Assembly (NCBI GenBank): GCA_904420445.1
Contig: CAJFVJ010000001.1
Span: 507,266-571,265, forward strand
From: Candidatus Adamsella avium
Lineage (GTDB): Bacteria; Cyanobacteriota; Vampirovibrionia; Gastranaerophilales; CAJFVJ01
Length of the DNA: 64,000 nt
Direction: 5' to 3'
In this document: positions 4,291 through 16,220 of the stretch, one piece after another
How the letters are laid out: the number at the start of each line of letters is the position of its first letter
How positions within the stretch are numbered: position 1 is the first letter of the stretch
The notes under the pieces: model-generated
Told to the model about the DNA's origin: nothing
Databases searched by the model: none
The model's input: the letters and a program-made list of their open reading frames with translations, nothing else
Made by a program: the position numbers and the translations under genes

Positions 4291-5008
4291 GCTCTATAAC
4301 AACGGCATAAGTTTTCTTTGAAGCATAGTTTGATATGATGTATGATGCACTTTCGTATTGTGAGATGTCTGATGAGGTTGTTTTGATTATTATACCGTTT
4401 TGTTTGTTTGACTCGCCTTTGAGCATAGCTGATTCGCTCGGGTTCGATTGATTTTTTTTGTACATATAGAGTTCTGTAGAGATGTCGCCTTCTTCAAAAG
4501 GGTCAGTGACGTGGGTTATTTTCAAGGATTTTGTTTTTGGGGGAATGTAGAATTTTATTAAATCGAATTTCCTTTTGTCGATAGATGTATCGTATACAAG
4601 GATGTATTTTGAGTTCGGGCAGTAGTGTATTTCATTAAGACTGAGAGCTTTTTTCAGGTAGGGGTAATTTTTGTTTATTCTTTCATATATTTGAGCATTC
4701 GGGTTTTTATCAAGGCAAATAGGGCAGATTGGCTTTCTCGCTCCGATAATTGTTCCTGCTGCAAGATTTTTTTCTGCCTGTCTTCGCAGCAAGAAAGCTC
4801 CGAGTCCTAATAATCCAGCACCTCCTATAGAACCGAGAGTAATTGCCGTTACTGCACCTCCAGAGAGTCCGCTGTCTTTATTGTCTGTGTTTTGTGATGC
4901 GGGGTTTTCTGCAATTTCAAAATTGAATGATGGTGTTCCTACTCTTGCTGAAGCATAAGGAGCGTTCAAAGATAATATTATAAACAGTGCAAGAAGTTTC
5001 TTCAGCAT
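4277..5008 (-). CDS. Exported or membrane-anchored hypothetical protein, 243 aa
   Basis: Residues 1-21 look like a cleavable signal peptide (LLALFIILSLNAPYASA). A glycine-rich hydrophobic segment around residues 50-72 (AVTAITLGSIGGAGLLGLGAFLL) would place the rest in or on a membrane, followed by RRQAEK as a positive-inside flank. A CPICLDKNP motif and one further Cys in the next 60 residues could bind metal or form disulfides. The C-terminal half is soluble and beta-rich by eye. No family is recognised. It begins one base after the preceding gene ends (5010), so the two form an operon divergent from the chaperone-usher genes, which suggests but does not prove a role in the same surface structure. 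Confidence 0.7.
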   Translation of the reverse strand: MLKKLLALFIILSLNAPYASARVGTPSFNFEIAENPASQNTDNKDSGLSGGAVTAITLGSIGGAGLLGLGAFLLRRQAEKNLAAGTIIGARKPICPICLDKNPNAQIYERINKNYPYLKKALSLNEIHYCPNSKYILVYDTSIDKRKFDLIKFYIPPKTKSLKITHVTDPFEEGDISTELYMYKKNQSNPSESAMLKGESNKQNGIIIKTTSSDISQYESASYIISNYASKKTYAVVIELIAE

Positions 5009-5495: not shown

Positions 5496-5645
5496 ATTTT
5501 ATCCTCAATCAAACTTTATTCTTCACAAAAATTTTTGAAATCCTCTTGACGAGCAAAAAATATATTGCCTGTTTTTCTATCCTACGAGGTATTTTTTTTC
5601 GATGTGTGAAAATTTATAAAAGTGGTGGTTGAGGACTTTAAGAAG

Positions 5646-6531: not shown

Positions 6532-7359
6532 ATGAAAAATTTTGCAATGACATTAATTATTACGGCGGTTCTTTTTTTTCAGGCAAACTTTGCCTTTGCT
6601 GCTGTCAGAGTGATGCCCACGCTGATAGAGCTTAATGCAAATAAAAGCAGAGGAAACTATTTGACAACGGCGTTCAGCGTGCAGGCAGACAAGGGGGAAA
6701 CAGTCAGGTTTAAGCTTTATCCCGAGTATTTTACAATAACTGACTCTGGCAAAATGAGTTCGACCCCGTCCTCAAACAACGCAGATAATTTGATACCACA
6801 TGCGAGATTTGTTCCGAACGAATTTACTCTGAAAGACGGTAAACCACAGCTTGTGAGGGTTACTTTTACCGATATAAAAAATCTGCCTGAGGGAGAATCA
6901 CGCATGGTTATGTTTATTGAAGATGTAAAAGCAAAAGAAGTCCTGCTTCCAAGCGGGAATAAGAATGTGAGTACAAAACTTATCGTAAAGACAAGGCTCG
7001 GTATCCCGATTTATGTTGATAGAGGGCGTTTTGTGAAGGTCGGAAGATTTGATAATTTGCAAATACAAAAAGAAAACCACAATCTTGTCTACAAAATGTC
7101 TTTGAGCGCAGGCGGAAACAGCAAGGTGAGATACCATGGGAAGGCTCAGATTATAAAAGATAAAAAACTGATTAAAGAGTTTGAAATGAACAGCAATACA
7201 ATTCGTGCAAACGGTGTCTTCGAAGAAAAGGGAATGCTTCCTCAGAATCTCGAAGACGGTGAATATACAATGAAAGTGATTTTGACTTATAAGAACGAAA
7301 AAGGAGAGAGCAAGAATTTGATAAAGGAAGCTCAATTCAACGTTACAAATTCAATTTAA
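6532..7359 (+). CDS. Periplasmic PapD-like fimbrial chaperone
   Basis: A signal peptide (residues 1-24, ending FAFA) is followed by a two-domain beta-rich protein of about 250 residues. The first domain starts VRVMPTLIELNANKSRG and continues with FSVQADKGETVRFKLYPEYF and an RFVPNEFTLKDGKPQLVRVTF stretch, the pattern of the N-terminal Ig-like domain of periplasmic pilus chaperones. The region around residue 155 (LIVKTRLGIPIYV) resembles the inter-domain strand. Such chaperones bind unfolded subunits in the periplasm and hand them to the usher. It sits between the first exported protein and two subunit genes, with gaps of 1 and 9 bases, and GGAGG precedes the next start. Confidence 0.78.
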   Translation: MKNFAMTLIITAVLFFQANFAFAAVRVMPTLIELNANKSRGNYLTTAFSVQADKGETVRFKLYPEYFTITDSGKMSSTPSSNNADNLIPHARFVPNEFTLKDGKPQLVRVTFTDIKNLPEGESRMVMFIEDVKAKEVLLPSGNKNVSTKLIVKTRLGIPIYVDRGRFVKVGRFDNLQIQKENHNLVYKMSLSAGGNSKVRYHGKAQIIKDKKLIKEFEMNSNTIRANGVFEEKGMLPQNLEDGEYTMKVILTYKNEKGESKNLIKEAQFNVTNSI

Positions 7360-7988: not shown

Positions 7989-8594
7989 ATGAAACACAAT
8001 TTTGTCATTTTTTTGATATTGTTACTGACTGCACCGGCTTGCTCCGGTGCAGCGGTATTGGACAGCCGCCTTGTCACGATAGTTCCGTCCGCTGCCGTTG
8101 TCAAAAGTGTTCCTGGTATCAAAAATAACAGCGTAATAGATCCTCAAAACGGTTTTCACTCAGGTCTTGAGGCTGTTTTTGACATAAAAACGAACGGAGA
8201 TGACTCTGCTTATGACTTTGTTCTCTCGAGTGCAATAGAAACCTCTCATGGAGTAAAAAACGGTTATTTTTTGAAAGACGGGAAACTTTATCTTATGCTC
8301 TCAAACAAAGACAGACTTCCTTTATCATCTGCTGTTTTTGATATTGTTTCAGGCAGCCCTGAGAATAATCCGAACATAATCGCATATCCCGTTGTAAACC
8401 TGAGCGGAGGAGAGTTCAAAATTCAAAACTACAACGGAGAACTTTGCTGCAGGATTTTCAGCGGGGGGCAGCAGGAGATGACGGTTGCACAGTATATAGG
8501 GAGCACACCTTTGACCAGGACATATTCGATTGAACAGGATTCTGCCGGAATGTATGAAGCTGTGCTTACTTTGAATATTTATAGAAAACCCTGA
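7989..8594 (+). CDS. Fimbrial-type subunit, paralogue 2
   Basis: A 201-residue exported protein (signal peptide about 20 residues, ending CSG/AA). It is a paralogue of the previous gene, sharing an NGFHSGLEAVF/TGNLESCFSSVF block, YLMLSNKDRLP/YVILSNIDHKP, SPENNPNIIAYPV and the C-terminal AGMYEAVLTL strand. Its stop codon overlaps the usher ATG (TGATG, one base), so translation of subunit and usher is coupled. Two diverged subunit copies could be major and minor components of one fibre. Confidence in paralogy is high; the function is inferred from the neighbours. Confidence 0.72.
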   Translation: MKHNFVIFLILLLTAPACSGAAVLDSRLVTIVPSAAVVKSVPGIKNNSVIDPQNGFHSGLEAVFDIKTNGDDSAYDFVLSSAIETSHGVKNGYFLKDGKLYLMLSNKDRLPLSSAVFDIVSGSPENNPNIIAYPVVNLSGGEFKIQNYNGELCCRIFSGGQQEMTVAQYIGSTPLTRTYSIEQDSAGMYEAVLTLNIYRKP

Positions 8595-11350
8595 TGAAAA
8601 TTTTAATTTCTCTCTTTCTGCTGTTATGTTGTGTTTGTTGTGCTTATGCAGGGCAAACATCTGTGACAGTGAGCTCTCTTATTCTGAATGAGTCTGAATA
8701 TTATGATATAGAAGTTTTTATGGACTCATCAAACAGAGTATTGATTCCCGTAAAGCAAACTTCAAAACTTCTCGAAATCCCGCTGACAATCAACCATTCT
8801 TCAAAAGAAGTTGTTTTTTCGACTTACTCGGGGGCTGAGGTTCTGGTATCAAAGGCGGGTGTGTTTATGAACGGGGTCAAAATTTTGTCTTCGCCGATTT
8901 TTCAGAAAGAGGGTATTTTGGGGAGTGATGAGTATTTTGTTGATAAAACAACCGCATCAACAATATTCGAGTCAGAGGTTGATGTTGACCCGAATTCATT
9001 GAACGTAATGGTTGAAAATAAACATCTCATAACACTTACCGATAAGGAAGGGGAAAGTATTGAAGAACAGAAAGAAATTCTAAAACCAAAACCAAAGGGC
9101 AGAATATCATTTGATACATTCGAAGTTAACAACTCCATGATGAGCGATTCAACAAAGCAGGTGTATTTGAACACTACGCAGAATAATGTTATGTTCAACA
9201 ACAACACAAGAATGGGACTGAAAGGAAAAATCTGCGGCGGGGATTATGCGCTGAATTTCAATACAAACAACTATACTCAAGAGTTGTTTTCTTTTGGCGG
9301 GTTAAGTTTTTCTTATCGAAACAAAATCAAAGATTTTTTTTATGAACTAGGGCAGGTATCAGGGCTGAGAGATGATTATAATTCAATCGGTACAATGCTC
9401 ATAGGTGCTCAGCTTTCTGACTATGACGAATATGAAAAGAAAAAAGATAATCAAACGGAAGAAAAAATCTTTCTCGAAAAAGGTAAAGTTCAACACCGCA
9501 TTTTCGCCGGCGTATCAGGATATAACAACCGCCTCTTCAGCTCTAACGGCTATATTTATCAGATGAATTCAAAAAAACTTGTCGGCGGGATAAATCGCCG
9601 ATACGGCATCAGAAATGATATGACTCTGGATACGAAAATTGTGTTTGACAAAATTATCCGGAAGAATGATGATTCGATATTTATTACAAACCTCTATAAC
9701 GATTATTCGCTTCTTTCATCAGGTGTCTATAGAAATCCGAACACCATGGAAGGTTTGAGCATTATCAACACGCTTAATCTTTATAAAAATAAGAACTACC
9801 GTCTAAATTTACTCGGAGGGGTGTCAGCTGCAAGAGATTTTAATTATAACAACGGTGAGTATTCCTCCGGATATTCCGTGTCGCTTGAGAATATCTTTGA
9901 CTACAAAAACTACACTTTCAAACTCCGATTATACCAGCAGTCGCCAGATTATTATGTCGCAGGGTCAGATTCCGGGTTTATCAGCGATAGAATAGGCGCA
10001 GAGATAGGAGCGAATTATTCAAGGGAAAATTTGAATGCCAGTATGCGTTATACAAGATATTATTCCAATCTTGATAAACGTTATAACGGCGGGCTGACAT
10101 CTTTTGATGAGTTGTATTTCAACTCCGGTATGAAAATATTTAATCTTGCTCGTGCAAGACTCAATGGTAATTTGCGTTATGGAGAGAATGGCATTGGCGA
10201 TAACCTGAATTATTATTATAACTTCAACCTCTCAAAAAGTTTCAAACAGAGCCTGTCTTTGGAAGCAGGCTATATGAGCAACGCTTATAACACAAAATAT
10301 TCTGAAGGGAATTCTTTTAGCAGCGGGTTTAAGAGCTCTTATGATACTGCTTATATGAGTGCAAATTATAGACTTCCCAAAAATAAAGGCGTGCTGACAC
10401 TCGGGCATGATAACGTCAGCTATGAGTCAGGCGGGGCGTCAAACAATTATAATATGATAAAACTGAACTACCGTTTCCCTGAATTCAAAAGAATTTTGCT
10501 CGGGTTTGGTGTCGGATACAAGTATTCAGGGCTTGACGGGGGCTGCACTTACAGCGGGGCATTGGGGTATCGGACAAAATCAGGGATGATTATGAGCGTG
10601 AATTATCAGTATAATACCGCTATGGGATATATTTTCAACAACATGTACATCCCATCAAATGCAAGACATTCAATAAATTTCACCATGAACGATACTTTTG
10701 CTTTTTCTCAAAACGGTCTTCAATCAATAGGCTCGAGTTCTCCTAATCAGGGTTTTGTTGAAATTGTCGCTTATATTGATAAAAATAAAAACGGCAAATT
10801 TGACAAAGAAGACATAAAAGTCCCGAATGTTCCCGTTTCAGTAAGCTGGCAGAACGAGTCAATCAAAACAAAACGAAGCGGTTTTTGTCCGCTTCAGTGT
10901 GTGGAGAAAGGAATCTATGAGGTAAAACTGGACGGCGAGAATATGCATACAAATCTCTCTGCTGAAAAAAATGCTGAGGCGAGCATCTGTGTTGAACCGC
11001 AGAAAACAACACGTGTAGAATTTCCTCTCAGGAGTTCTGTCGGGAATATTTCGGGCGTCCTGAAAATTTCTGATGATTTTGATAGAAAGATGAATATTTC
11101 TGATTTCATTGTTACTCTGTGTGGTGAAGACGGGGCAGAGGTTGCTTATTCTACGGTTGATGCTGGCGGAAACTATTATTTTTCAGGGATATCCCCGGGG
11201 AAATATGTTGTTGCACTCGATAAGAATTTTATAAATGACTATAACCTCATTCCTGATGAAAAATACGGGAAAATAGAAGTCGATATTCCTTATGTTTATA
11301 AAGAATTTGTCGAGATGAACAATCAAAATCTTGTATATAAGAGTTATTGA
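8594..11350 (+). CDS. Outer-membrane usher-like protein
   Basis: A 918-residue exported protein (signal peptide ending AYA). Residues 25-150 form a beta-rich periplasmic region with a LIPVKQTSKLLEIPLTI stretch, similar in character to copper-amine-oxidase-N-type domains. Residues about 175-720 show the alternating, Tyr/Asn-rich strands with turn residues of a large outer-membrane barrel (for example GLKGKICGGDYALNFNTNNY). After the barrel comes YIDKNKNGKFDKEDIKVPNVPV, an EF-like calcium loop at the start of a C-terminal domain, and then a transthyretin-like unit (GGNYYFSGISPGKYVVAL). The same arrangement is known from ushers of archaic-type and non-proteobacterial chaperone-usher systems. It would secrete and assemble the subunits coded just upstream. 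The identification rests on architecture, length and context. Confidence 0.75.
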   Translation: MKILISLFLLLCCVCCAYAGQTSVTVSSLILNESEYYDIEVFMDSSNRVLIPVKQTSKLLEIPLTINHSSKEVVFSTYSGAEVLVSKAGVFMNGVKILSSPIFQKEGILGSDEYFVDKTTASTIFESEVDVDPNSLNVMVENKHLITLTDKEGESIEEQKEILKPKPKGRISFDTFEVNNSMMSDSTKQVYLNTTQNNVMFNNNTRMGLKGKICGGDYALNFNTNNYTQELFSFGGLSFSYRNKIKDFFYELGQVSGLRDDYNSIGTMLIGAQLSDYDEYEKKKDNQTEEKIFLEKGKVQHRIFAGVSGYNNRLFSSNGYIYQMNSKKLVGGINRRYGIRNDMTLDTKIVFDKIIRKNDDSIFITNLYNDYSLLSSGVYRNPNTMEGLSIINTLNLYKNKNYRLNLLGGVSAARDFNYNNGEYSSGYSVSLENIFDYKNYTFKLRLYQQSPDYYVAGSDSGFISDRIGAEIGANYSRENLNASMRYTRYYSNLDKRYNGGLTSFDELYFNSGMKIFNLARARLNGNLRYGENGIGDNLNYYYNFNLSKSFKQSLSLEAGYMSNAYNTKYSEGNSFSSGFKSSYDTAYMSANYRLPKNKGVLTLGHDNVSYESGGASNNYNMIKLNYRFPEFKRILLGFGVGYKYSGLDGGCTYSGALGYRTKSGMIMSVNYQYNTAMGYIFNNMYIPSNARHSINFTMNDTFAFSQNGLQSIGSSSPNQGFVEIVAYIDKNKNGKFDKEDIKVPNVPVSVSWQNESIKTKRSGFCPLQCVEKGIYEVKLDGENMHTNLSAEKNAEASICVEPQKTTRVEFPLRSSVGNISGVLKISDDFDRKMNISDFIVTLCGEDGAEVAYSTVDAGGNYYFSGISPGKYVVALDKNFINDYNLIPDEKYGKIEVDIPYVYKEFVEMNNQNLVYKSY

Positions 11351-11411: not shown

Positions 11412-12482
11412 ATGTCTGAAAAAGTTCGATATACAATAACTGCTTGCATTTCAGGCACAGCATGCAATTTTGATTGCAGCTACTGCTACAGGAAAAAACA
11501 GGGAGTTGAAGAGAAAAATCAGCCTTCAAATTTTCGTTATTCCGTTGAGTATATGCTGAAGGCTTTATCAAAACAGCGTTTGGGAGGAATTGCAGATATT
11601 GTTGTCATCGGAGGAGGAGAAACTCTGCTGCATCCTGATGTCGTTCCTTTTATCAAAGGACTTCTCGCAGAAGGGCATATTGTTGAAGTTGTTACAAATA
11701 TGACTCTCAATCATCGTATTGATGAGTTATTAGACAACACACCTTCTGAACATCTTGAAAGATTGCTTGTTAAGGGGTCATTTCATTATCTTGAACTGAA
11801 GCGGCTGAACAAACTTGATGATTTTTTCAATAATATGAAAAAAGTTGTTGATGCAGGGGCTTCATGCTTTCCGTTTCTGGTAATCTGCGAGGAATATATT
11901 CCGCTGCTTGATGAAATAAAACAGGCGTTCCTTGATAACCTCGGCGAACTTCCTCATTGTACGTCAGCTCTTGACTTTGCAGAAGCAAAGATGAAACCTT
12001 ACGGATTTTATAACAATGAATTCAAAAAAATTGTCAGCGAAAAATTCAACTCCAAAATAAACGACACATTTGACAGATTTTTATCTGTTGATGTGAAAAA
12101 CCACTTCTGCTACGCAGGTGAGTGGAGTTTTGTTCTGAACACATCAAACGGCAGCATATCAAGATGTTTTTATTCTCCATCCGAGCAGAATATATTCAGA
12201 GATATTTCTTCTGAAATAAAACTCGGTGCAATCGGCACAAACTGCTGTATCGGAAACTGTGCGCTTCATTATAATCTTGTATCACAGGGGATTATGCCTG
12301 ATTTTGATGATGTTATCCCATATGGAGATATGTTGTATAAACCGAAGCTGTTCAACAAAAAACTTGTAGAATTGTTGAATTTCAAATACGAAAATTATAT
12401 GCCTCTGTTCTCAAAAGAAGAAGAACAAAAGATTAATGATAAGACGAGAAAAACTTTTGAAGAACTCAAGACGAAAGTTTAA
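11412..12482 (+). CDS. Radical SAM protein, paralogue 1
   Basis: Cys18, Cys22 and Cys25 form the CxxxCxxC motif (CNFDCSYC) that binds the radical-generating 4Fe-4S cluster, followed by GGGETLLHPDVV, the usual SAM-contact region. The C-terminal part (about residues 225-300) has further Cys residues, including CFYSPSEQ and NCCIGNCALHYNL, which look like an auxiliary-cluster domain. The 356-residue length suits a radical SAM plus C-terminal Cys domain. The substrate is unknown. The next gene starts two bases later and is a paralogue, followed by a glycosyltransferase, so a role in making a modified surface sugar or peptide is plausible but unproven. The usher gene ends 61 bases upstream. Confidence 0.85.
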   Translation: MSEKVRYTITACISGTACNFDCSYCYRKKQGVEEKNQPSNFRYSVEYMLKALSKQRLGGIADIVVIGGGETLLHPDVVPFIKGLLAEGHIVEVVTNMTLNHRIDELLDNTPSEHLERLLVKGSFHYLELKRLNKLDDFFNNMKKVVDAGASCFPFLVICEEYIPLLDEIKQAFLDNLGELPHCTSALDFAEAKMKPYGFYNNEFKKIVSEKFNSKINDTFDRFLSVDVKNHFCYAGEWSFVLNTSNGSISRCFYSPSEQNIFRDISSEIKLGAIGTNCCIGNCALHYNLVSQGIMPDFDDVIPYGDMLYKPKLFNKKLVELLNFKYENYMPLFSKEEEQKINDKTRKTFEELKTKV

Positions 12483-12484
12483 AG

Positions 12485-13315
12485 ATGGTTAAAGAAGATA
12501 AGATAAAAAGAGTTATATTTTTTTGTGGGGGAAATTATTTCTGCAATTTGAAATGCGAGTATTGCTATCTTGATTCACCAAAGCCAGATAAAAAATTCTG
12601 CACCTCAAAAGAGCTGATGAAGACTTTTTCAAAAAAAGCATTAGGCGGGTGTGCTTTTTTCAACTTTGTTACTTTGGGCGAAACCCTTTTGTGTGACGAA
12701 AATATTGAAGCGATAAAGTTATTCCTTGAAGAAGGGCATGTTGTCAATGTCGTGACAAATTTGACATATTCAAAAAATTTGGAAAAACTTCTTTTACTGC
12801 CTGAGGAGTTAAAAAGCAGGCTGATTATTCATGCGAGTCTACACTATCTTGAATTGAAGAAAAGAAATCTCCTTGATGAATATTTCAACAACCTTCAAAG
12901 ATGCAAAGAGGCAGGAGTTTCATTTCATATGGATTTAACCGTATATGAAAAATACATGCCTGTTCTTGAAGAGATTAAAGAAGTATGTCTTTTGAAAACA
13001 GGGCTTTTGCCGAATATAACAATTGCACTCGACAAAGATAAAAACTGGATGCCGTTTGATTTTTATAATGAAGCAGTGCACAAAAAAATAGTTGATGTTT
13101 TTGATGCAAAAGAGCTTGATATTCAGCGCAATATATTTTTTGACAAAGAAGAAAATAAACCTTGTATGGCAGGCAGATGGTCGCTTGTTTATTATTGGTC
13201 GGGGAGAAGATGCACTGCCTGCAACGGGATAAAAGTGAATATTGATACGCCGTTTGTAAATTCGGATGGCGTAAAGTGGCTCGGGGGGGGGGGATACGGT
13301 TATATGCCCTTTTAA
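12485..13315 (+). CDS. Radical SAM protein, paralogue 2, truncated by a G-tract frameshift
   Basis: As read here the gene codes 276 residues, with CxxxCxxC at Cys20, Cys24 and Cys27 (CNLKCEYC). It parallels the previous gene along its length: VTLGETLL versus VIGGGETLL, EEGHVVNVVTNLT versus AEGHIVEVVTNMT, and ASLHYLELKKRNLLDEYFNNL versus GSFHYLELKRLNKLDDFFNNM (both shown only in part of the match). After KWL it enters a run of 11 G (13283-13293), reads GGGGYGYMPF and stops. With 10 G the frame would continue to 13472 through a Cys-rich tail that aligns with the C-terminus of paralogue 1. The displayed form lacks that presumed auxiliary-cluster region and is probably inactive. It is either a phase-variable off state or a homopolymer error. 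Confidence 0.8.
   Translation: MVKEDKIKRVIFFCGGNYFCNLKCEYCYLDSPKPDKKFCTSKELMKTFSKKALGGCAFFNFVTLGETLLCDENIEAIKLFLEEGHVVNVVTNLTYSKNLEKLLLLPEELKSRLIIHASLHYLELKKRNLLDEYFNNLQRCKEAGVSFHMDLTVYEKYMPVLEEIKEVCLLKTGLLPNITIALDKDKNWMPFDFYNEAVHKKIVDVFDAKELDIQRNIFFDKEENKPCMAGRWSLVYYWSGRRCTACNGIKVNIDTPFVNSDGVKWLGGGGYGYMPF
13283..13293 (+). repeat. Homopolymeric G tract (11 G), candidate contingency switch
   Basis: Eleven consecutive G residues lie in the coding strand of the second radical SAM gene in an otherwise AT-rich region. Tracts of this kind change length by slipped-strand mispairing and switch genes on and off in many host-associated bacteria. The current length puts the downstream coding region out of frame; one fewer G would restore it. 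Confidence 0.85.
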
Positions 13316-13472
13316 AAGATGTTTTTGCGGGGAGATTTTTTTGACCTGGGGGCTTCTGCCTGAGAGGAATGATATCCCTACATTTTTTGAATTTTATTTG
13401 AAAGAAAAAGGTTTTTATTCTGAAACCGTAAAAAAACTCACTGATGTAAAATTATCGGATAACAACAGGTAA
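13294..13472 (+). other. Out-of-frame 3' part of radical SAM paralogue 2
   Basis: Read one base out of phase from the current frame, this stretch is open for about 59 codons from the G tract to a TAA at 13470-13472, five bases before the next gene's ATG. It encodes DTVICPFKRCFCGE, then FLTWGLLPERND, aligning with TNCCIGNCAL and NLVSQGIMPDFDD of paralogue 1. With 10 G the distance from the Leu before the tract to the first tail Cys equals that in the paralogue. The full-length product would be 328 residues. Confidence 0.8.
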
Positions 13473-13477
13473 GTGCT

Positions 13478-14668
13478 ATGGCGAGAATTCTTGTATCATT
13501 TTGGCAGCCGTTGATAGGCAGCAGTTCAGATAATATTATCTGCTATTATGAAGCTTTTGCAAAAGAACTCAAAAAATTTGGAAATGAGGTGTTGATACTC
13601 AACAGAGTTTTGTTTACCGATGCTTATTTCAGGTCTTATGCAAAAGAGCATGAGGATTTTCTTGTTGAAGAGGTAAGAAAATTTAATCCCGATTTGATAA
13701 TAGCGTTTAATAATCAAATTTTTGAGTGTGTTCTTGAAAACACAAATTGTCCTGTCGGCTTGTTTGACGCTGATTCGAGCTATTTATTTTCATCAAAAGA
13801 TTGTATATCCAAATATATTGAAAGATATTTTATGGTGACTCACTATGAGAATTGGGAGAATGTATATGGTGAAATGGGATTTTCTCGGGAAAAAATTTGT
13901 ACCATCAAAATAGCAACCTCATGCAGGAGGGAAGAAAAAGAAAAAAACAAGAATATTTCTTTTATCGGAACGAAGTTTCTGCAAACAGTGAGTGAGAATA
14001 TCAGAAACTATCTTACTGAAAACAAGCCAAATATTTACAAAATGCTAAAAAAACACTGGAGCAGCGGGTCTTATGATTATGAAGAATTGTTGAAGGAGTT
14101 TTGTCCTGATTTGACATGTACAAAACATGATATAGCCCAGATATTTGACGGCAGAAACTATGTTCTTTCATCTCTTCTTGATCTCGGTCTGAATTTGTAC
14201 GGTGCCGGCTGGCATGATGGCGAAGATAATAATATTGCGCTGATGTCCGCTTATGACAGTACTCCGAAATTTTCACTGAAACACAATCAGGATATTTACA
14301 ATGAGTCGAAAATATGTTTGAGCATCTCACATCCCCAGACAAGAGGCTATGCGTTTCCATGGAGGGTATATGATATTATGGCAACAAGCGGTATGTTGAT
14401 TTCGTCTTATTCCTCACTGCTGAAATCGCAGACAAAAGATTTTGTTGATATTCCCATGTATAACTCTCCATATGATGCTCGTGATCTGTGCAAAAAATAT
14501 CTGAAAGAAGCAAATATGAGAGAAGATGTTGTTTGTGCCTGCAATGATTTTATAGAAAAACATGGTCGATGGGAGAACAATTTTCGTGAGCTTGAAACGT
14601 TTTTCAGACTTAAACTTATTAACAGAGGAGAAGGGAGTATAAAATTTTTGAGACCGCCTATACAATAG
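13478..14668 (+). CDS. Glycosyltransferase-like protein, CgeB/DUF3880 type
   Basis: A 396-residue cytoplasmic protein with a two-domain GT-B-like layout. The N-terminal half has a PDLIIAFN strand near residue 75 and a CPVGLFDADS stretch, as in DUF3880 domains. The C-terminal half has YNESKICLSISHP around residue 275, then YAFPWRVYDIMATSGMLIS, the donor-binding region seen in CgeB and YkvP-like family 1 transferases. By family it would transfer a sugar from an activated donor; acceptor and sugar are unknown. It follows the presumed full-length end of the second radical SAM gene by five bases, so the three genes look like one operon whose middle gene is switchable. Confidence 0.75.
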   Translation: MARILVSFWQPLIGSSSDNIICYYEAFAKELKKFGNEVLILNRVLFTDAYFRSYAKEHEDFLVEEVRKFNPDLIIAFNNQIFECVLENTNCPVGLFDADSSYLFSSKDCISKYIERYFMVTHYENWENVYGEMGFSREKICTIKIATSCRREEKEKNKNISFIGTKFLQTVSENIRNYLTENKPNIYKMLKKHWSSGSYDYEELLKEFCPDLTCTKHDIAQIFDGRNYVLSSLLDLGLNLYGAGWHDGEDNNIALMSAYDSTPKFSLKHNQDIYNESKICLSISHPQTRGYAFPWRVYDIMATSGMLISSYSSLLKSQTKDFVDIPMYNSPYDARDLCKKYLKEANMREDVVCACNDFIEKHGRWENNFRELETFFRLKLINRGEGSIKFLRPPIQ

Positions 14669-15230: not shown

Positions 15231-16220
15231 ATGACCGTACTTGTTTTGGGCGGTGCCGGATATATAGGTTCCCACACTGTTTATGAGCTTATTGACTTGG
15301 GAGAGGATGTCGTTGTTGTTGATAATCTGATAACAGGTCATGAGGAAGCCGTTCATAAGAAAGCAAGATTTTACAAAGGAGATATCAGGAACAAAGACTT
15401 TTTAGATAATTTGTTCAAAAAAGAGAAAATTGATTCGCTTATTCACTTTGCTGCAAGCTCGCTTGTCGGAGAAAGCATGGTCAATCCTCTGAAATATTAT
15501 GATAACAATCTTTATGGAACAATGGTTTTGTTGAAATCGATGGTTGAGCATAATATAAACAAGATAGTTTTTTCTTCTACCGCAGCTGTCTACGGAGAGC
15601 CTGAGAATATTCCGATACTCGAAGATGATAGCACTTCACCGACAAACACCTATGGAGAAACAAAACTGTCAATGGAGAAGATGTTCAAATGGGTATCTGC
15701 TGCTCATAATCTTAGATTTGTTTCTCTTCGATATTTTAATGCATGCGGGGCGCATATAAGCGGGAAAATCGGAGAAGACCACAGCCCTGAGAGTCATCTT
15801 ATCCCTTTGATTTTGCAGGTGCCTAACGGAAAAAGAGAGGCAATAAACATATTCGGAGATGACTATGATACAAAAGACGGAACCTGCGTGAGAGATTATA
15901 TCCATGTTACCGACCTCGCTCAGGCTCATATTCTTGCGTTGAAGTACCTTGATAAAGGTGGCGGAAGCGACATCTTCAATCTCGGAAACGGAGTCGGCTT
16001 TAGTGTAAAAGAAGTTGTTGAGACTGCAAGGAAAGTGACCGCCCATAATATTCCCGCTGTTATATCTCCAAGGAGAGCCGGTGACCCGGCAAAACTTGTT
16101 GCCTCAAGTGATAAAGCAAGAAAAATTTTGGGGTGGGCTCCTGCGCATGCTGATTTGGCAGAGATTATCTCAACCGCATGGAAATGGCACAAAAAACATC
16201 CGGGTGGATTTTCAAAATAA
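15231..16220 (+). CDS. galE: UDP-glucose 4-epimerase
   Basis: A 329-residue short-chain dehydrogenase of normal GalE length. The NAD-binding motif GGAGYIGSH is at residues 7-15, the catalytic Tyr-Lys pair is in YGETKLSME, and the substrate-site segment RYFNACGAH follows. The enzyme interconverts UDP-glucose and UDP-galactose in the cytoplasm, feeding galactose use and surface polysaccharide synthesis. AGAGG precedes the ATG. It is followed by cstA after 19 bases. A related epimerase specificity, such as UDP-GlcNAc, cannot be excluded from sequence alone. Confidence 0.93.
   Translation: MTVLVLGGAGYIGSHTVYELIDLGEDVVVVDNLITGHEEAVHKKARFYKGDIRNKDFLDNLFKKEKIDSLIHFAASSLVGESMVNPLKYYDNNLYGTMVLLKSMVEHNINKIVFSSTAAVYGEPENIPILEDDSTSPTNTYGETKLSMEKMFKWVSAAHNLRFVSLRYFNACGAHISGKIGEDHSPESHLIPLILQVPNGKREAINIFGDDYDTKDGTCVRDYIHVTDLAQAHILALKYLDKGGGSDIFNLGNGVGFSVKEVVETARKVTAHNIPAVISPRRAGDPAKLVASSDKARKILGWAPAHADLAEIISTAWKWHKKHPGGFSK

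Follow-up and report, generated by a model that had tools for sequence, protein, structure and literature searches.

A run of eleven guanines near the 3' end of a radical SAM gene (rSAM2) likely makes this gene a translational phase-variation (contingency) locus for a surface-glycan enzyme in a member of the Gastranaerophilales, the little-cultured, gut-dwelling and non-photosynthetic relatives of the cyanobacteria. The gene lies in a stretch of 64,000 nucleotides, referred to as the window, and is preceded by an intact paralogue (rSAM1) and followed by a glycosyltransferase-like gene (Table 1).

Direct reading confirmed the original prediction that the frame of rSAM2 ends just behind a G11 tract (stop at 13315). 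The 276-aa frame, starting with the ATG at 12485, has the C-terminal end LGGGGYGYMPF: tract lengths of n = 2 mod 3, to which the assembled 11 G belong, leave a 7-codon tail (GYGYMPF). Lengths of n = 0 mod 3 result in a 16-codon tail (IRLYALLKDVFAGRFF), and those of n = 1 mod 3 (10, 13) give the full frame with a 59-codon tail and the TAA at 13470-13472. In the assembled sequence the first codon of this displaced tail (GAT) takes the last G of the tract (13293). Frame reading also bore out that the 10-G frame stays open for 59 codons to a TAA five bases before the next gene (ATG at 13478). The tract is situated late in the gene, at codon 267 of 328.

Long G tracts had been expected to be rare in this DNA, and this was the case. 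A G11 tract occurred in none of 100 dinucleotide-preserving shuffles of the window, and the 2.10-Mb genome contains 13 runs of at least 7 G, four of at least 9 G and two of at least 10 G, namely the G11 tract and a G12 tract (all genome-wide statements on G runs rest on pattern searches). Considered as a simple sequence repeat, the rSAM2 tract is in frame and improbable by chance, and one of its length classes gives the full protein and the others truncated ones.

Table 1. Features around rSAM2 in the window, and further long G runs in the same genome (G000; contigs C1 to C3).
Feature	Position	Strand	Remarks
275-aa protein, weak likeness to fimbrial biogenesis chaperone StbB	6532..7359	+	E 0.004, far below cut-off
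918-aa predicted surface protein, SdrD_B-like C-terminal domain	8594..11350	+	61 bases upstream of rSAM1
rSAM1, intact 356-aa paralogue	11412..12482	+	stop 2 bases before rSAM2 start
rSAM2 as assembled, truncated radical SAM protein (putative OFF form), 276 aa	12485..13315	+	CxxxCxxC (C20/C24/C27)
G11 homopolymer tract, proposed slip site	13283..13293	+	direct reading, frame analysis, G10 in sister species, shuffles
Displaced rSAM2 tail, 59 codons, TAA end	13294..13472	+	Cys equivalent to C274 and C279
Glycosyltransferase-like gene (Glyco_trans_1_2)	13478..14668	+	5 bases past putative ON-frame stop of rSAM2
G12 tract	G000:C1:181932-181943 (L139 5933-5944)		gene out of frame; full frame at 10 or 13 G
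G9 run	G000:C2:183041		in frame, DAHP synthase-like gene
G9 run	G000:C3:833464-833472 (L140 5001-5009)		directly after short leader MSNKADINLSNISA, prophage-like region

A sister species, represented by a metagenome-assembled genome of the same genus (G001, CALUSR010000001.1), shows an operon order identical to that of the window. Its rSAM2 orthologue carries G10 at the same codon within an uninterrupted ORF of exactly 328 aa, the length which had been predicted for the restored protein, and the difference between 10 and 11 G is the sole indel in rSAM2 between the two species (two genomes). An orthologue with another tract length and an intact tail, as looked for by the original prediction, is therefore present. 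Approximately 62 kb of the window could be aligned to this genome at a divergence of roughly 8%, and within this alignment no clear conserved gene other than rSAM2 is disrupted by an isolated frame-breaking indel. All further frame-breakers over the 64 kb compared either compensate each other in pairs or fall into doubtful ORFs, and generic assembly noise was rejected as an explanation on these grounds.

The displaced tail appears to be real coding sequence. The claimed similarity to the C-terminus of rSAM1 was confirmed by alignment (WGLLPE versus QGIMPD, cysteines in register), and the tail shows no decay: it retains two of the seven cysteines which are invariant in the family, and differs from the sister species in 2 of 177 nt (1 aa), compared to 40 of 798 nt in the body of the gene. 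A simple pseudogene, in which all relatives would have 11 G followed by a decaying tail, is excluded by the G10 tract and the retained tail of the sister species. The G10 orthologue and the conserved tail together support the G tract as the candidate switch and the site at which the frame is lost.

Between approximately 12500 and 14250 of the window the divergence from the sister species amounts to 2-5%, and in the flanks to 6-13%. This suggests a local, recent exchange or recombination at about 12.5-14.2 kb. As this whole stretch is less diverged than its flanks, the 2 of 177 substitutions provide weak evidence of selection, and the divergence of the tail would point to a frame that was lost recently or reverts, not being on its own a proof of selection on the tail. 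Further copies of rSAM2 from the same species were not detected among the viral contigs searched, and a search of a phage collection yielded one unannotated 5-kb record with an identity of 29%.

Across 71 aligned homologues of many phyla, C20, C24, C27, C227, C246, C274, C279 and G269 are invariant. The CxxxCxxC motif present in all 71 sequences and a match to PF04055 assign the protein to the radical SAM superfamily; the full-length form of the sister species passes the cut-off of this model (E 2e-7) and the truncated form lies just under it (4e-6). None of the NCBIfam models passes its cut-off for the tested members of the rSAM2 family. The AlphaFold2 model of the 328-aa form has a mean pLDDT of 89 and a pTM of 0.91, with values above 90 for residues 281-328 and less certain blocks of 51-78 near the tract, between residues 251 and 280. 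The closest solved folds are those of SkfB, SuiB, BlsE, PqqE and anSME, radical SAM enzymes of which most have C-terminal auxiliary domains. Furthermore, the family profile aligns to SkfB through its C-terminal cysteines, C227, C246, C274 and C279 included. Based on these similarities the full-length form is a radical SAM protein with a putative SkfB/twitch-like auxiliary [4Fe-4S] site.

The tract itself encodes residues G267-269. As C274 and C279 are located beyond it, the 11-G form lacks half (two of four) of the probable ligands of the auxiliary cluster and, missing the predicted cluster site, the 276-aa product should be inactive. The order was covered with 383 genomes, and of the family members found in them the copy in the window alone stops at model position 257. 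Intact relatives in the same genome are rSAM1 and a gene at G000:C2:271891.

The original prediction described the varied product as being of unknown nature. The neighbourhoods of homologues narrow this to a probable surface polysaccharide. The nearest neighbours of 118 homologues, assigned by Pfam, comprise 32 polysaccharide pyruvyl transferases, 15 Polysacc_synt flippases and about 10 GT2 glycosyltransferases, and other types include ABC exporters (Wzt) and epimerases. In the window, a galE-like epimerase is encoded at 15231, further downstream of the glycosyltransferase. Taken together, the neighbours of the homologues, the glycosyltransferase and the epimerase indicate a likely role in the modification of surface polysaccharides, and rSAM2 probably modifies one of their sugars, its substrate being deduced from gene context.

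The rSAM2 family as a whole (homologue loci L059-L138) spans many phyla, with seven invariant cysteines and frequently adjoining polysaccharide pyruvyl transferases or flippases. This association of an invariant-cysteine radical SAM family with polysaccharide genes, recurring across phyla, points to a chemistry of glycan modification still without assignment.

The glycosyltransferase starts five bases past the stop of the ON frame and approximately 160 bases past that of the OFF frame, and its translation could therefore also be coupled to the tract length. Upstream of rSAM1, the gene of the 918-aa protein is the last of a cluster which might encode chaperone-assembled fibres. An assignment of this protein as an usher was rejected because SdrD_B was its sole library match.

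According to the proposed model, the poly-G tract would gain or lose guanines by slipped-strand mispairing during replication, its hypermutability being presumed. With 10 or 13 G the complete 328-aa radical SAM enzyme with its auxiliary [4Fe-4S] site would be formed, presumably acting on a sugar of the surface polysaccharide together with the rSAM1 paralogue and the glycosyltransferase. With 11 G translation would stop seven codons past the tract, two of the four cysteines of the auxiliary cluster would be missing and the product would be inactive. Daughter cells would thus alternate between the complete and the truncated enzyme, and the population would vary its surface glycan.

The comparison of lengths behind this model covers one genome per species, a G10 metagenome-assembled genome and the G11 assembly, and the difference could represent one fixed mutation. 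The position of the tract also argues against a switch, as the tracts of translational phase variation mostly lie in the 5' part of the gene and that of rSAM2 lies late.

It seems unlikely that the eleventh G is a sequencing or assembly error and that the gene, with a true tract of 10 G, is intact. Long G runs are prone to such errors and the sister assembly has 10 G. However, although the aligned 62 kb or so include many runs of seven to eight A or T, no further clear conserved gene in them has an isolated homopolymer frameshift, and two independent errors would be required since the G12 tract is also out of frame. Moreover, the tract as such is conserved in both species, whatever its exact length. 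Somewhat less probable still is a young pseudogene, in which the G run was the mutational hot spot of a recent, simple loss of function and switching plays no role. Such a loss is compatible with the sampling of one genome per species, and the intact rSAM1 and G000:C2:271891 could make rSAM2 dispensable. Against it speak the lack of a second lesion, the 59-codon tail which is still open with both cysteines, and the retention of 10-11 G in both species although synonymous changes in the glycine codons could interrupt the run. Furthermore, more than two changes in 177 nt would be expected in a tail that had evolved neutrally after the two species separated (dS of the body 0.15), a deficit which local recombination could also explain.

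Programmed recoding, by which the 11-G form would be fully translated via transcriptional slippage or ribosomal frameshifting and both products would arise from one DNA, appears very improbable. Long homopolymers can cause RNA polymerase to slip. Recoding would, however, be needless in the sister species with its in-frame length, and the stability of the RNA around the tract does not exceed that of shuffled sequences (z 0.08); as no stimulatory structure was seen there, a programmed frameshift was rejected. A phase-variable rSAM2 remains the preferred reading.

The G12 tract of the same genome divides its gene in two, and both parts match, in register, one homologue of 265 aa. This homologue resembles O-acetyltransferases of the WbbJ type, and the gene is a second candidate for phase variation in this genome. 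No close orthologue was found in the sister species (best identity 35%), and the comparison of tract lengths is thus confined to rSAM2. Both tracts of at least 10 G are thus located in probable glycan-modifying genes which, judged from their frames, would both be OFF as assembled. Behind the G9 run on contig C3, a domain that is out of frame resembles the end of the neighbouring upstream 146-aa gene. The affected gene has the appearance of a switchable gene for a prophage tail protein or an adhesin, and its G run might constitute a third tract of this kind.

In the family f2 of the same order, most genomes have G/C runs of at least 9 in the tens, the highest count being 176. The stretches examined were L142-L161 (G042, G030) and L178-L197 (G024, G035, G040, G041, G043, G046, G048, G014), and in nearly all of them the tracts lie on the G-rich strand. 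Each genome shows a preferred tract length, which is 10 in most g3 genomes and at least 13 in g12, and the tracts are often found near codon 10 or so of prepilin-like genes (AFTLAEVL...). All 34 g3 tracts examined are flanked as C-G10-C-R. In two g3 genomes all 26 scorable tracts are out of frame with the same offset, and most tracts in other f2 genomes are also out of frame. In two f2 stretches Ns adjoin the tracts and make the lengths there uncertain. In G046, one copy with 12 G seemed to be ON among copies with 13 G that are OFF, but this case was set aside because of two Ns next to its tract.

Poly-G contingency loci might thus occur throughout the Gastranaerophilales, a generalisation we hold only tentatively. 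The radical SAM and the G12 acetyltransferase genes would then form a small set within one genus, and f2 would possess a repertoire of switchable surface genes that are OFF by default, with tract lengths possibly set by a process other than plain slippage.

Homologues in other phyla also contain in-frame G tracts, namely G15 in L123, G9 in L129 and G8 in L079. An enrichment of G tracts inside these homologues relative to their flanks was considered and abandoned, the cases being suggestive and the difference not significant (p = 0.18). In L123, from a metagenome-assembled genome of the Spirochaetaceae, the tract is located at codon 208 of the radical SAM homologue, and a second G15 tract is present in the preceding gene (4736-4750 / 5535-5549 pair).

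If the model holds true, the switching of a glycan enzyme would provide surface variation in the Gastranaerophilales, with a bearing on phage attack, immune recognition and adhesion. It would also concern genome annotation, in which genes that are only switched off are entered as truncated or absent.

Phase variation by G tracts is classical, and homopolymer-tract phase variation is known mainly in host-associated Proteobacteria, Campylobacterota and a few others. In the literature collection searched, no report linked phase variation to the Gastranaerophilales, and the 20 best matches of a broader query included none on Melainabacteria. While G-tract phase variation, late tracts and G-tract radical SAM genes have already been published, the occurrence in the Gastranaerophilales seems to be new.

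Among structurally characterised enzymes, rSAM2 resembles SkfB and the twitch/SPASM maturases (PDB 6efn) in combining a radical SAM core with a C-terminal cysteine motif, which in rSAM2 would hold a putative auxiliary cluster. In contrast to SkfB, to which the identity is about 18%, no RiPP precursor gene was noticed, and the homologues of rSAM2 neighbour polysaccharide genes rather than peptides.

In Campylobacter, translational phase variation by poly-G/C tracts affects, for example, maf, cj1295 and the sugar transferase cj1421c (PMC6321876). The in-frame homopolymeric G tracts of 7-13 and the frequent targeting of surface or glycan modifiers are shared features. The systems differ in phylum, in the late position of the rSAM2 tract, in the number of tracts of at least 10 G, which is only two in this genome, and in that the length difference of the rSAM2 tract was observed between two species. 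A PhasomeIt analysis of Campylobacter fetus assigned CFT03427_1545 (G 9-10) and CFT03427_1558 (G 9), annotated as 'MoaA/NifB/PqqE/SkfB family', to the core phasome (PMC6321876). These are likewise radical SAM genes with a G tract, likened to rSAM2 by annotation, and the annotated family includes SkfB, the nearest fold to rSAM2.

Tracts late in genes have been described in Helicobacter canadensis as C-terminal phase variation (PMC2823697), in which, as proposed for rSAM2, a change in the length of a homopolymer tract toward the 3' end swaps or removes the C-terminus. Most of the changes in H. canadensis, however, involve few residues, whereas rSAM2 loses 59 residues and two cluster ligands, so that the effect should be one of on and off. 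The loss of two invariant cysteines thus suggests an inactivation of rSAM2 rather than a changed product.
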